In this document: positions 4,783 through 15,614 of the stretch, one piece after another | Position numbering within the stretch: the first letter of the stretch is position 1 | Layout of the letters: every line of letters starts with the position of its first letter | NCBI GenBank assembly: GCA_028712665.1 | Contig: JAQTRC010000029.1 | Coordinates: 1 to 36,265, forward strand | Source of the DNA: Desulfuromonadaceae bacterium | GTDB lineage: Bacteria; Desulfobacterota; Desulfuromonadia; Geobacterales; Pseudopelobacteraceae | Reading direction: 5' to 3' | Length of the DNA: 36,265 bases | Position numbers and translations under genes: made by a program | The notes under the pieces: model-generated | Database searches by the model: none | What the model was told of the DNA's origin: nothing | What the model saw: only the letters and a program-made list of their open reading frames with translations

Positions 4783-6312
4783 ATGATCTCTTCGGCATAT
4801 GCGGCCAATTCCGCGCCGTTCGCATCCCTGATTGATGTCAACTTCATTCTGATCAACCGTATCTTCGTTCTGGCGGTAACTCTACTTTTTTTCACATCCA
4901 TTCTCTTTATCCGCCGGGCCCGCTCTCAAGAGATACATCCGAGAATCATGTCTCCGATCAAATACGCAATTTTCGGTTCTCTGCTGTTGTACGCGGAGTT
5001 GGCCATGTCGGATATGCCAAGCTATCAGGGAATTTTGCAGGGAGTGCAGACGATCATAGTTTTGATCTGTCTAGCAAAATTGGTTAACTATATCACCATC
5101 GATGTCTATATGCGCATTCGCGCCCAGCGGGAGGCGCCGACGTTTGTACGCGATACGGTTCGTCTTATTGTCTATTTGATCGTTGGAATCATATCGCTCA
5201 GGCTTGTCTTCAAAATCGATCTTTCGGCCATTGTTACGACTACTACCGTTATTACTGCTACAATCGCCTTTGCGATGCAGAGTACTCTTGCAAACGCGCT
5301 GTCCGGTTTTTCCATTCAGACGGACACTCTGCTGGCCAGGCAAAACTGGATATCAATTAAAGAAAAAAATATCTTTGGTGAGATTGTCAATGTCGGGTTC
5401 CGTTATACGACCCTGCGAAATCTTGAAAATTACCTGATTCTGGTGCCAAACAGCGTAATCATGCAGAACATCATCACCTTTCATGGCAACAGAGAAAGCG
5501 ATAACAAGCCGGCGATCCAGGTTGATGTAATGCTGGGGTACGATATGCCGCCCGAAACTGCGAAAATACTTCTGATGCAGGCCGTCAGCGATGATTCGGA
5601 GGTATTGGGCATCCCGGAACCGGTGGTGCGCCTGATATCGCTTAACGATAGTGGAATTACCTATCAGCTCAAGTTTTGGATAGAAGACCCTTCCGGCAGG
5701 ATCCGCGTTCAGGACGCTATCTACAGCCGGGTCTGGTATGCTGTTAATCGCGCAGGTTACAGTTTTCCTTTCCCGCACCGTCAGATTATTACGTCTGAAG
5801 CAAAGCAGCCTTTCGAGTTTTTCCGAGGGCAAATTGCCGAAGAATTGCGTCGGTCCGAACTTTTTGCCCTGCTTGACGACGCAACTATCATCGCCCTTGC
5901 CGAGCAGGCTCCTGTTATGGTTTTTGGACCGGGAGAGGTTGTGGTACATCAGGGTGATGGAGGGAGTTCCCTTTTCATAGTACTCAAAGGCGCCCTTGAT
6001 GTCTCCGTGGACGATGCGATTGTCGGCAGCATTCAGGAGGGGTCATTTTTTGGTGAAATGTCGCTCTTGACCGGCGAGCCTCGCAGCGCAACAGTCCGGG
6101 CTTCTAACGAGGTCTGGCTGGCGGAGGTGACCAAAGAGTCGCTGGAACCGATCCTGACTTCCAATCCGTCTATTCTGGAAAAACTGAGCCACATTCTTGC
6201 AGAGCGTGAAGCAAGGACGAGAGTAAGCCAGGAAACGAGCGCCGATTCTGCCAGAAGCTCTCTTTGCCGGGAAGATTATCTGCAGCGTCTCAAACTCTTT
6301 TTCAGGTTGTAG
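4783..6312 (+). CDS. MscS-family channel with C-terminal cyclic-nucleotide-binding domain
   Basis: A 509-residue inner-membrane protein. Hydrophobic segments occur at about residues 22-44, 61-75, 86-103 and 127-145, followed by the pore-lining helix region 147-175 (TTVITATIAFAMQSTLANALSGF). The MscS beta domain follows (DTLLARQNWI to VPNSVIM) and the cytoplasmic alpha/beta domain ends with the family motif SFPFPHRQI (327-336). Residues 358-480 form a Crp-type cyclic-nucleotide-binding domain with a full phosphate-binding cassette, FFGEMSLLTGEPRSATV. The channel could thus be gated by tension and tuned by cAMP or cGMP. AAAGGAG precedes the start by ten bases. It is 47 bases downstream of pyrD but functionally unrelated to it. 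Confidence 0.92.
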   Translation: MISSAYAANSAPFASLIDVNFILINRIFVLAVTLLFFTSILFIRRARSQEIHPRIMSPIKYAIFGSLLLYAELAMSDMPSYQGILQGVQTIIVLICLAKLVNYITIDVYMRIRAQREAPTFVRDTVRLIVYLIVGIISLRLVFKIDLSAIVTTTTVITATIAFAMQSTLANALSGFSIQTDTLLARQNWISIKEKNIFGEIVNVGFRYTTLRNLENYLILVPNSVIMQNIITFHGNRESDNKPAIQVDVMLGYDMPPETAKILLMQAVSDDSEVLGIPEPVVRLISLNDSGITYQLKFWIEDPSGRIRVQDAIYSRVWYAVNRAGYSFPFPHRQIITSEAKQPFEFFRGQIAEELRRSELFALLDDATIIALAEQAPVMVFGPGEVVVHQGDGGSSLFIVLKGALDVSVDDAIVGSIQEGSFFGEMSLLTGEPRSATVRASNEVWLAEVTKESLEPILTSNPSILEKLSHILAEREARTRVSQETSADSARSSLCREDYLQRLKLFFRL

Positions 6313-6371: not shown

Positions 6372-6469
6372 GGAGGTACGTCGGTCGCTGGTGGGCCGCC
6401 CGGTCTTCAAAACCGGTGGGGGGGATGAGAAATCTCCCCGGTGGGTTCGATTCCCATGTGCCTCCGCCA
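6372..6469 (+). tRNA. selC: tRNA-Sec (anticodon UCA)
   Basis: A 98-base selenocysteine tRNA including an encoded CCA. It has the diagnostic 8-bp acceptor stem (GGAGGTAC with GTGCCTCC, one G-U pair), the anticodon TCA in the loop CTTCAAA, a very long variable arm (GGGGGGATGAGAAATCTCCCC) and the T-loop GGTTCGATTCCC. It inserts selenocysteine at recoded UGA codons with SelA, SelB and SelD, none of which are in the window. It shows that the organism makes selenoproteins. selC is also a well-known integration site for tyrosine-recombinase elements, and an integrase scrap lies about 100 bases downstream. Confidence 0.97.
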
Positions 6470-8687: not shown

Positions 8688-10181
8688 ATGGCTGACTTAA
8701 ACGGCGTAATGATGCAATATTTCCATTGGTACATTCCTGCGGATGGCGCCTTCTGGAACAGTGTCGCCGCAAAATCCAGGGATCTTGCAGAATCTGGAAT
8801 AACCGCGCTCTGGCTTCCGCCAGCCTATAAGGGAATTGGTGGCGGTTCGGATGTCGGTTACGGTGTGTATGACTTGTACGATCTGGGAGAGTTTGACCAG
8901 AAGGGGTCGATACGCACCAAATACGGAACACGGCAGCAATACCTTGAAGCAATTGCGGAGCTGAAAACTACCGGAATTCAGGTGTACGCCGATGGGGTGC
9001 TGAACCATCGCATGGGAGCGGACGAGGCGGAAGCGAGCCGTGCAACTCCTTACTCTAAAGGTGACCGGATCAATCCCAAAGGGCCGATACAAGATATCAG
9101 GTCGTGGACTCACTTCACCTTTCCTGGAAGAAACGGAAAATACTCTGACTTCGAGTGGCGCTGGCAACACTTTGATGCAGTAGACTACGAGGCGGGCAAC
9201 CCGACGGATTACAACACCATCTATCTCTTTGACGGCAAACGTTTTGATGACGACGTATCCCCGGAATTCGGCAACTTTGCCTACCTGATGGGATGCGACC
9301 TGGATTGCCAGAGCAAAGATGTCCGGGATGAGCTTATCCGCTGGGGTAAATGGTATCTGGATACTACCGGTGTTGACGGATTTCGTCTTGATGCCATCAA
9401 ACACATTGCGGCATGGTTCTTCCCCGAGTGGCACGATGCGCTGGAAAAACATGCCGGCAAAGAGCTGTTTATGGTCGGGGAATATTGGGCGAACAGCCTT
9501 CCCGCCTTGCGTTGGTACATAGACGATGTTGGCGGCCGGCTTGCTGCCTTTGACGTACCGCTTCATTTCAACTTTTATGCAGCCGGACGTCTGGGCAACA
9601 ATTACGACCTTCGCTGTATCTTGAATGATACTCTTGTAAAAGAGCGTCCTGCGCACGCCGTTACATTCGTAGATAACCACGACTCACAACCGCTGCAAGC
9701 ATTGGAATCGAGTGTCGAACCTTGGTTCAAGCCCCTGGCTTATGCCATTATTCTGCTACGGAAGGAGGGTTACCCATGTTTGTTTTATCCCGACTACTAC
9801 GGGGCCGAGTACGATGACAAAGGGCAGGACGGAAACGACTACCATATCTCAATGCCGTCGCATCGCTTCCTGATCGACACGTTTCTGCGCGCACGCCGGG
9901 AGTATGCCTACGGTCTGCAGTATGACTATTTCGACCACCAGAACACTATCGGTTGGACCCGTTTGGGTGATGAAAACCACCCTGGCGGAATGGCCGTACT
10001 GATGAGTAATGGCGGAGACGGGTGGAAATGGATGGAAGTTGGCCGCCCGAATGCAACATATACCGATATTACCGAGCATATTAAATACCCGATTGTAACC
10101 GATAACAATGGCTGGGGAAAATTTGTCTGCGTCGGGGGAAAAGTTTCAGTATGGTTGCCAAATTCAGAAAAATACATATGA
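8688..10181 (+). CDS. Cytoplasmic alpha-amylase (GH13 family)
   Basis: A 497-residue glycoside hydrolase with no signal peptide, so it acts on intracellular glycogen or maltodextrins. It opens with NGVMMQYFHWYIPADGAFW, typical of cytoplasmic bacterial alpha-amylases. All four GH13 regions are present: ADGVLNH (101-107), GFRLDAIKHI with nucleophile D235, MVGEYW with acid/base E265, and FVDNHD with D332. The C-terminal part holds the short antiparallel beta domain. Length is usual for the group. A strong GGAGGAG stands before the ATG. The next gene, a cyclase-PilZ fusion, starts 46 bases downstream on the same strand, so storage-carbon breakdown and second-messenger output may be co-transcribed. 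Confidence 0.93.
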   Translation: MADLNGVMMQYFHWYIPADGAFWNSVAAKSRDLAESGITALWLPPAYKGIGGGSDVGYGVYDLYDLGEFDQKGSIRTKYGTRQQYLEAIAELKTTGIQVYADGVLNHRMGADEAEASRATPYSKGDRINPKGPIQDIRSWTHFTFPGRNGKYSDFEWRWQHFDAVDYEAGNPTDYNTIYLFDGKRFDDDVSPEFGNFAYLMGCDLDCQSKDVRDELIRWGKWYLDTTGVDGFRLDAIKHIAAWFFPEWHDALEKHAGKELFMVGEYWANSLPALRWYIDDVGGRLAAFDVPLHFNFYAAGRLGNNYDLRCILNDTLVKERPAHAVTFVDNHDSQPLQALESSVEPWFKPLAYAIILLRKEGYPCLFYPDYYGAEYDDKGQDGNDYHISMPSHRFLIDTFLRARREYAYGLQYDYFDHQNTIGWTRLGDENHPGGMAVLMSNGGDGWKWMEVGRPNATYTDITEHIKYPIVTDNNGWGKFVCVGGKVSVWLPNSEKYI

Positions 10182-10227: not shown

Positions 10228-11322
10228 ATGAAAAATTTGAGCCACAAAGACGCGTTGAAGCAGATCCAGGAGATTGTACTCCGAGAAACCGGGGTGCCGT
10301 TGCGCTGCGAAGCGCTCAATCAGGTGCAGGATGTGCTGTTCAGCACAATCAGCTATGCCGGCAGCGTACCATCCAACGAGAATTTTTTGAGTCGGGAGGT
10401 CACGATACTGTTGTCGGACCTTCGAGGGTTCTCGGCAATCTCGGAGGCCTACCCCGCCGTAGTGATGCTTGACTTGTTGAACCGCTACCTCGCGAAAATG
10501 AGCGAGATCGTAGTGCGCAACCAGGGTACCATCGACAAGTTCATGGGCGATTCTATCATGGCGCTGTTTGGCGCCCCGTATTTGCTGCATGACGACGTGA
10601 AACACGCGCTCACATGTGCCGTGGAAATGCAGATCGCGATGGAAGAAATCAACGAATATCACAAAAAGCTTGGGATGCCCGAGCTGTTCATGGGCGTAGG
10701 GATTAACACCGGCGCCGTAACAGCCGCATTACTTGGTTCGGCGCTTCATTCGGAATACACGGTAATAGGCGACGAGGTGAACATTACTTCGCGAATCGAG
10801 GCGTTCAGCCTGCGCGGGCAGGTGCTTATCAGTCAGTGCACCTTCGACCGCTGCGGAGACTTTGTGACAACCGGCAAACCGATGGATGTCTTCGTGAAGG
10901 GAAAAAGCAAGCCGGTTGCCCTGTACGAAGTGCTGTCCATTCCGTCGCTCGGCCTGGAACTGCCGCGGAAGGAAATCCGAAAGAGCCCGCGCGTGGAAGT
11001 CAGGATCCCATTTACATACCAGTTGGTAGTGAACAAGATCGTTATGCCGCAAGTATACCAAAGCGTGATAAGAGACATCAGTTATCACGGGATTCTGGCC
11101 GAGATGGAACAGCAACTCGCACCTCATTCCGAGATCAAGCTGGTGTTCGACATGTTGCTGGTCGGTTACAGGGCTTCCGATATCTATGCGAAAATCGTCA
11201 TGACGCGGGAGAAGGAAGGGTGCTTCCTGTCGGGCATTGAGTTCACGTCGTTTGGCGTCCAGAGCGAGGTCAACATCAAGTACTTCGTCCAGATGCTGGT
11301 TCAGAGTAGCGATATTAAGTGA
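10228..11322 (+). CDS. Class III nucleotide cyclase fused to a PilZ domain
   Basis: A 364-residue soluble protein. Residues 55-235 form a class III adenylate/guanylate cyclase domain: metal-binding D64 (LLSDLRGFS) and D108 (KFMGDSIMALFG), K104, and the VIGDEVNITSRIE block with D182, transition-state N185 and R189, so it should be catalytically competent. Residues 248-355 form a PilZ domain with both halves of the c-di-GMP motif: RKSPR (R251, R255) and DISYHG (D283, S285, G288). The protein could make cAMP under control of c-di-GMP. The ATG at 10228 is preferred because the longer frame runs back into the amylase gene. The Shine-Dalgarno is weak. It follows the amylase gene by 46 bases. Confidence 0.92.
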   Translation: MKNLSHKDALKQIQEIVLRETGVPLRCEALNQVQDVLFSTISYAGSVPSNENFLSREVTILLSDLRGFSAISEAYPAVVMLDLLNRYLAKMSEIVVRNQGTIDKFMGDSIMALFGAPYLLHDDVKHALTCAVEMQIAMEEINEYHKKLGMPELFMGVGINTGAVTAALLGSALHSEYTVIGDEVNITSRIEAFSLRGQVLISQCTFDRCGDFVTTGKPMDVFVKGKSKPVALYEVLSIPSLGLELPRKEIRKSPRVEVRIPFTYQLVVNKIVMPQVYQSVIRDISYHGILAEMEQQLAPHSEIKLVFDMLLVGYRASDIYAKIVMTREKEGCFLSGIEFTSFGVQSEVNIKYFVQMLVQSSDIK

Positions 11323-11409
11323 TGCTGTAGAAATAATTTCCCTCGTCATTTTAGCCGGTTCATCTCCGGCGAGGCAAAAAGTCAATTGGACTCCGCTTAC
11401 ATCGTGCCG

Positions 11410-11437
11410 ACAGAGTGAATATGAATATTCACTCTGT
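11410..11437. terminator. Perfect 13-bp palindrome, terminator or operator
   Basis: The arms ACAGAGTGAATAT and ATATTCACTCTGT are perfectly complementary around GA. A T-rich stretch (TTTTTATT) follows shortly after, so it can end the cyclase transcript. It also overlaps the -35 region of the next gene's promoter, so an operator role is equally possible. Confidence 0.6.
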
Positions 11438-11463
11438 TGAAATTTTTATTATGCGAGTATAAT
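11435..11463 (+). promoter_or_regulatory. Promoter of the FKBP gene
   Basis: A perfect TATAAT lies at 11458-11463. Upstream, TGTTGA gives a 17-base spacer, or TTGAAA (11437-11442) a 15-base one. The 28-base palindrome overlaps the -35. Confidence 0.5.
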
Positions 11464-12571: not shown

Positions 12572-13279
12572 ATGGCAATCAACGATATATCTCTCATATC
12601 GAGCCTGCGAAGTAATCTGGCAGCTCTAAAAAACAGCAGCAACGCTCTGAGCAAAACTGAGGAGCGTCTATCCACCGGGAAAGCCGTCAACACCCCAACG
12701 GACAATCCAACCAATTTTTCGATTGCTCAAGGGCTCCTCTCACGATCCGCTGATCTTTCCGCCAACAAGGATGCTGTCGCCAACTCCATTAAGACCGACA
12801 ACATTGCCCAGGTCGGCTACCAGAGAGTCACATCACTCCTGCAATCAGCCCAGGGAATTGCTTCGGCCGCCAAAAGCATCAGCGATCCAACGGAACAGGC
12901 AGGCTATGCCGCTACTTACAAGACGCTGATCTCTCAGGCGGGTCAAACTGCCAACGAGGCAGGCATCGGCTCCTCTGTCTCATCCATATTGCCTTCCGGC
13001 GCACTGTCCGACCAGTCAGCTTCTGAACTGGAATCAGCTATCGGCTCCATCAGGTCACAATCTGCGGCTTCGGCCACCACTCTGAATGGAACATCGATCA
13101 TCCAGGATTTCACGAATAACATGATAAGCACCCTCCAGGCTGCTGCCGGCAACTTGACTGTGAGTGATTTGAACCAAGAAGCCGCCATCGCGCTGTCGCA
13201 GCAAACGGAGCAGCAACTGGGCGTTGCTTCTCTAGGGATGTCGTCTAAATCCTCACAATCTCTGTTGAGGCTGTTCTGA
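12572..13279 (+). CDS. Short flagellin
   Basis: A 235-residue flagellin consisting almost only of the conserved ends. The N-terminal D0/D1 helices are clear (SLRSNLAALKNSSNALSKTEERLSTGKAVNTPTDNPTNFSIA), and the C-terminal D0 helix ends in QQLGVASLGMSSKSSQSLLRLF, the usual Q-S-x-L-x-LF finish. The variable outer D2/D3 domains are missing, so a filament of this protein would be thin and smooth, or the protein may be a minor or junctional subunit. AAAGGAG lies before the start. It follows the FlaG-like gene by 123 bases and is followed by a terminator-like hairpin. I saw no good sigma-28 promoter. Confidence 0.85.
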   Translation: MAINDISLISSLRSNLAALKNSSNALSKTEERLSTGKAVNTPTDNPTNFSIAQGLLSRSADLSANKDAVANSIKTDNIAQVGYQRVTSLLQSAQGIASAAKSISDPTEQAGYAATYKTLISQAGQTANEAGIGSSVSSILPSGALSDQSASELESAIGSIRSQSAASATTLNGTSIIQDFTNNMISTLQAAAGNLTVSDLNQEAAIALSQQTEQQLGVASLGMSSKSSQSLLRLF

Positions 13280-15140: not shown

Positions 15141-15614
15141 TTAATAGTCCAGATACTGGGCAAGTATTTTACTCGTCTTCCTCAATCTTTTGCAGACCTC
15201 TCTGGCTATTCTCAGGTTCAAAGAACCCCACAGGAGCGGATTCAAGCGCATGAGATCCAAATAATCATGCTGTGACATCTGCAATAACGTAACATTAGTC
15301 TTCGCCACAGCGGACGCCGAACGTTTTGTCCCATCTATGAACGCTATTTCGCCAAGAAGATTACCTGGTAGAATGCCGGCGATAATTTTTTTTGTGCCGT
15401 CTTCCTCACGCATGACATCTATTGCCCCATGACAAACGACATAGAGAAAATCGCCTGTATCGCCCTGCTCGCAGATAACTTCATCAGAGTCGGCTTCACA
15501 AAGGATCATGTGTGAGGCAATTTCTCCAATTTCATCGAGGTTCAGCCCTGAACAGACGGGCGCATTCTTTAACAGTTCCAGCTTCTCTGCGACAGTTGCA
15601 TGGTTTGTTCTCAT
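15141..15614 (-). CDS. Stand-alone cyclic-nucleotide-binding protein
   Basis: A 157-residue protein that is essentially one Crp-type cyclic-nucleotide-binding domain. The sequence runs from FSGL-type helix (CSGLNLDEIGEIAS) through EVICEQGDTGDFLYVVCHGAIDV to the phosphate-binding cassette GEIAFIDGTKRSASA (E89, R98, S99). A short helical tail (LRIAREVCKRLRKTSKIL) follows. It lacks the DNA-binding wing of Crp, so it must act through a partner. GGGAGG is four bases from the ATG. It lies 98 bases downstream of a PilZ gene on the same strand, which suggests an operon that senses two second messengers. Confidence 0.85.
   Translation of the reverse strand: MRTNHATVAEKLELLKNAPVCSGLNLDEIGEIASHMILCEADSDEVICEQGDTGDFLYVVCHGAIDVMREEDGTKKIIAGILPGNLLGEIAFIDGTKRSASAVAKTNVTLLQMSQHDYLDLMRLNPLLWGSLNLRIAREVCKRLRKTSKILAQYLDY

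Follow-up and report, generated by a model that had tools for sequence, protein, structure and literature searches.

A class III nucleotide cyclase fused to a PilZ domain in a Desulfuromonadaceae bacterium, a candidate link between cyclic di-GMP and cyclic AMP signalling

Introduction

Can a single polypeptide read cyclic diguanylate (c-di-GMP) and answer by making cyclic adenosine monophosphate (cAMP)? The question is raised by a gene in a contig of a Desulfuromonadaceae bacterium (GenBank assembly GCA_028712665.1, contig JAQTRC010000029.1), which was analysed over its whole length of 36,265 nucleotides and is called the window here. A preliminary description, made from the DNA alone, had placed a nucleotide cyclase fused to a PilZ domain at positions 10228-11322. 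These coordinates hold, and both domains, Guanylate_cyc and PilZ, exceed their curated Pfam cut-offs in the encoded protein (Table 1). Our best reading, to which we assign a probability of about 0.62, is that of a soluble class III adenylate cyclase which forms a homodimer and would be regulated by c-di-GMP at the C-terminal PilZ domain. It is preferred because both domains, the catalytic and the specificity residues, the PilZ fold and an intact ligand motif were found.

Cyclase domain and expected product

The Guanylate_cyc match (PF00211) scored 83 bits with a cut-off of 21.9, and the cyclase part of the AlphaFold model fitted solved class III cyclases. The best of these in Foldseek was Cya2 of Synechocystis (2w01, TMt 0.94), which shares the fold and is about 41 % identical across the domain; the class III adenylate cyclase domain of CyaB of Pseudomonas aeruginosa (3r5g) matched with TMt 0.90. 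The solved CyaB chain consists of the cyclase domain only, whereas the window protein adds the PilZ tail. For the model of the whole protein, only cyclases were present among the 50 matches listed. The active-site residues form a complete set (D64, D108, N185 and R189). From family knowledge of class III cyclases, K104 and T178 are presumably the positions that specify ATP. Cya2, which stands behind a membrane CHASE2 sensor, has a glutamate at the site aligned to K104. It is a guanylate cyclase that the E488K exchange turns into an adenylate cyclase (PMC5995499); the 6fht chain, built on the Cya2 cyclase, carries a lysine at the aligned position. As K104 and T178 are invariant and E488K alone switches Cya2, we infer an adenylate-type specificity with cAMP as the expected product. 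Thus, the window protein differs from Cya2 in a lysine for the specificity glutamate, in the PilZ tail and in that no membrane sensor was seen.

Gene and protein architecture

The start codon at 10228 was preferred, because an earlier in-frame ATG at 10108 would overlap the amylase gene (8688-10181) and because the ATG of several relatives aligns with 10228. Pfam revealed no third domain in the protein (a dedicated transmembrane predictor was not used), in agreement with the earlier view that no other recognisable sensor is present. The predicted N-terminal helices were aligned mainly inside the betaproteobacterial clade; in many other relatives the matched region does not include them. The AlphaFold monomer model of the whole protein had a mean predicted local distance difference test score (pLDDT) of 85.

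PilZ domain and ligand motif

A model of the tail alone (residues 240-364, pLDDT 91) presented a PilZ fold with a C-terminal helix at residues 344-361. It was nearest to c-di-GMP-binding PilZ domains with Z scores of 12-15 (MotI, PP4397, MrkH, YcgR and Alg44): MotI 5vx6 reached Z 15.4 (root-mean-square deviation 2.5, 116 residues aligned), and the c-di-GMP-bound structures of PP4397 (3kyf), MrkH (5kgo) and YcgR (5y6f) reached Z 13.8, 13.6 and 13.2. The Xanthomonas PilZ protein 3dsg, described as a trivial c-di-GMP binder, was more distant (Z 6.1). A sequence-profile search of the PDB with the PilZ part alone gave no match, despite the clear fold match.

All residues named in the preliminary description, namely the four of the active site, RKSPR at 251-255 and DISYHG at 283-288, occur at their given positions, and its claim of an intact PilZ motif is borne out by these two elements together with the modelled fold. 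Alignment, tree and domain scan of the relatives comprised 48 sequences, and all 48 matched both Pfam domains. R251, R255 and G288 were unchanged although the relatives span 43-66 % identity, and of the five PilZ positions that never vary, three belong to the canonical ligand-binding set (hypergeometric test with relatedness ignored, P about 3e-4). The fusion in every aligned relative and this enrichment argue that neither the architecture nor its motif is due to chance. The other motif positions vary. Position 283 was D in 42 sequences, N in 4 and V in 2, position 285 was S in 19, as in the window protein, and G in 29. The window protein has kept the full canonical motif, and so have the four relatives nearest to it. 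On the tree, the S/G state required at least four changes, which implies repeated loss or regain of the serine.

Proposed mechanism and alternative explanations

According to the proposed mechanism, c-di-GMP would bind at RKSPR and DISYHG and would thereby reorder or fix the short inter-domain linker containing RKSPR. In the model, residue 238 closes the last strand of the cyclase, and RKSPR follows about 12 residues later; hence the ligand-binding loop may also be the hinge. Once fixed, the hinge would change how the two halves of the cyclase pair. The precedent is BcsA, the bacterial cellulose synthase, likewise an enzyme with its own c-di-GMP-binding PilZ domain and also a fold match to the tail model. 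There, binding of c-di-GMP releases an autoinhibited enzyme via this domain (PMC7288161). The output of BcsA differs, being a polysaccharide and not a second messenger, and the enzyme domains are unrelated. For the window protein, activation is slightly favoured over inhibition as the direction of control.

Several points weigh against control by c-di-GMP. The relative placing of the cyclase and PilZ domains was uncertain in the monomer model (predicted template modelling score 0.68). Some PilZ folds bind no ligand and serve as protein adaptors (PMC7288161). With glycine in place of S285 in the 29 sequences and the loss of D283 in two, some members of the family may bind the ligand weakly or in an altered manner. 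These substitutions and the known adaptor domains also favour the foremost alternative, an unlikely one in our estimate, by which the PilZ domain serves dimerisation, localisation or the binding of a partner and the cyclase is set by its expression level or by another protein. A paralogue in the same genome (L002, G000:C55:43893-44786) adds to it. This GAF-PAS-cyclase in a 755-codon frame has a glutamate at the substrate-specifying site and is possibly a guanylate cyclase. Profile comparison shows its tail to be homologous to the PilZ domain of the window protein (probability 95.6, E 1.2e-08), while RxxxR, DxSxxG and a Pfam PilZ match are all absent. A similar match, a 761-codon frame 35 % identical over residues 55-343, was found in the genus-mate G032. 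Such degenerate tails presumably do not bind the ligand. Their existence gives the adaptor explanation some weight, and it equally makes the intact motif of the window protein more noteworthy. Against such a role stand the two arginines and the last glycine, conserved throughout the alignment, and the full motif, which the window protein shares with the four relatives nearest to it.

In Betaproteobacteria, c-di-GMP is the usual PilZ ligand. The gene looks imported from this group and its motif is the canonical c-di-GMP one, which makes it very improbable that the domain senses another cyclic dinucleotide, e.g., 3',3'-cyclic GMP-AMP (cGAMP), made in Geobacter by Hypr GGDEF enzymes, although the genus of the host is probably of the Geobacteraceae type and cGAMP signalling is presented as established in Geobacter (PMC8835794). 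A catalytic domain that makes cyclic guanosine monophosphate or is inactive, and hence gives no cAMP link, is just as improbable, for all that the closest solved domain, Cya2, is a guanylate cyclase, since K104 and T178 never vary in the alignment and are of the adenylate cyclase type, every catalytic position is occupied and one exchange converts Cya2.

Relatives and origin of the gene

In a collection with one genome per species (84,980 species), 133 relatives were confirmed out of 184 pattern matches. This number is a lower bound, because the scan picks up close relatives only. The relatives were mostly Betaproteobacteria; they occurred in Acidovorax, Gallionella, Candidatus Accumulibacter, Methylophilales, Thiodiazotropha symbionts, Desulfobacterales and one metagenome-assembled genome of the Lentisphaerota. 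Of 369 genomes sampled from the class to which one Acidovorax relative belongs, 5 had the gene, including the reference (4 of 368 without it, about 1 %). The architecture is thus broad but sparse. The rarity implied by the preliminary description applies within that class, where about one genome in a hundred is a carrier; with the spread of the confirmed relatives over many groups, the protein is no singleton. Among plasmids, no relative was detected at a threshold of E 1e-40. Nothing in the viral library pointed to a cyclase-PilZ protein; the similarity of phage cyclases was limited to the cyclase part.

In the class of the host, the gene was present in only 2 of 277 genomes at E 1e-65, one of them G032. 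This is the only other member of the genus with the gene, and its protein is 52 % identical. The G032 copy stands on DNA that matches a metagenome-assembled genome labelled uncultured Geobacteraceae with 100 % identity over 3,935 bases, which makes the host a probable member of this group. The G032 genome is 7 % contaminated, so this copy could be contamination. The window protein was nested among betaproteobacterial sequences and the G032 protein fell into a different sub-clade; the fork holding the window protein was drawn open, leaving its exact sister unsettled. The guanine-plus-cytosine content at third positions was 0.715 in the cyclase-PilZ gene and 0.56-0.64 in six other genes of the window. 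As the gene is nearly absent from the class and its product is nested among Betaproteobacteria, horizontal acquisition by the host is the simplest account and probably the correct one. A mis-binned contig is unlikely: the amylase and other window genes match genus-mates with about 65-79 % DNA identity, thus the contig belongs to the genome.

Genomic neighbourhood and signalling parts of the host

The gap from the amylase stop codon to the cyclase-PilZ gene is 46 bases, and a tie of the cyclase input to the use of storage carbon had been suggested from this position. The suggestion is unsupported, since amylase relatives were near the cyclase relatives at none of 80 loci, and in the two genus-mates whose amylase DNA is most similar (77-79 % identity) the amylase is flanked by other DNA, with no cyclase-PilZ gene next to it. 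An amylase-cyclase operon is thereby rejected as a conserved unit. No conserved neighbourhood of the family was observed across lineages; neighbours were shared only in close groups, e.g., Acidovorax or Thiodiazotropha.

The host genome gave 23 GGDEF matches and 12 PilZ matches including the window protein (11 others). Cyclic-nucleotide-binding domains accounted for 6 further matches, and 2 of these lie on the contig of the window (Table 1). With these three groups present, the host has the parts that a link from c-di-GMP to cAMP would need. Of the two neighbours, the mechanosensitive channel is a possible cAMP target. A selenocysteine tRNA gene (6372-6469) lies directly downstream of the channel gene and is near-identical in many genomes of the order. 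Elsewhere in the genome, a stand-alone PilZ protein (L090, G000:C174, 112-codon frame) is encoded directly downstream of a gene for a GAF-containing class III cyclase; the pair is possibly a two-gene counterpart of the fusion. The window further encodes a short flagellin-like protein of 235 amino acids (12572-13279), in which Pfam recognises the flagellin N-terminal domain alone.

Table 1 Features of the cyclase-PilZ gene and of its surroundings in the window (cNMP, cyclic nucleoside monophosphate; conservation as counts in 48 aligned sequences)
Feature	Position	Strand	Remarks
Cyclase-PilZ gene	10228..11322	+	364 aa; ATG at 10228, stop 11320-11322, stop codon included
Predicted N-terminal helix pair, residues 6-21 and 27-41	10243..10350	+	no known domain
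Class III nucleotide cyclase domain, residues 56-228	10393..10911	+	Pfam PF00211 Guanylate_cyc, 1.8e-23 to 1.9e-23
D64, metal-binding aspartate	10417..10419	+	invariant, 48/48
K104, predicted adenine-specifying lysine	10537..10539	+	invariant, 48/48
D108, metal-binding aspartate	10549..10551	+	invariant, 48/48
T178, second substrate-specifying position	10759..10761	+	invariant, 48/48
N185 to R189, transition-state pair	10780..10794	+	N 47/48, R 46/48
PilZ domain, residues 250-351	10975..11280	+	Pfam PF07238, 7.6e-08 to 1.3e-07; tail model
RxxxR motif, RKSPR, residues 251-255	10978..10992	+	R251 and R255 both invariant, 48/48
DxSxxG motif, DISYHG, residues 283-288	11074..11091	+	G288 invariant, 48/48
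Terminator-like hairpin, 14 pairs, loop 4, then T-rich tail	11408..11439	+	between cyclase-PilZ and FKBP genes; consensus scan only
MscS-type mechanosensitive channel, C-terminal cNMP domain	4783-6312		about 4 kb from the cyclase gene
157-aa single-domain protein	15141-15614		little beyond the cyclic-nucleotide-binding domain

Significance

The cyclase-PilZ protein is real, conserved and well-formed, it consists of two well-known domains, and it is not unique to the host genome. Domain databases list cyclase-PilZ architectures automatically. A literature search revealed no paper on such a protein, which is weak evidence of absence because most subscription journals and preprints were outside its coverage; the architecture is apparently undescribed in the searchable literature. 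Bd1971 of Bdellovibrio is also reported to couple cAMP and c-di-GMP signalling in one chain, in the direction opposite to that proposed for the window protein: it is a cAMP-sensing EAL-type c-di-GMP phosphodiesterase (PMC6717892).

The short soluble form would allow easy testing and makes the protein a candidate part for biosensors. Genetics may be feasible, as relatives are present in named Acidovorax strains, e.g., A. delafieldii DSM 64. The host probably gained the gene by horizontal transfer and integrated it among GGDEF, PilZ and cNMP-binding proteins that it already had. For the family as a whole we consider, tentatively and at somewhat less than even odds, a dedicated, horizontally spreading group of converters from c-di-GMP to cAMP, in which the sub-types with DxSxxG, with DxGxxG and with a degenerate tail behind GAF-PAS would tune or remove the input. 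No link between the two signalling systems would be shorter than one chain that reads the first messenger and produces the second.
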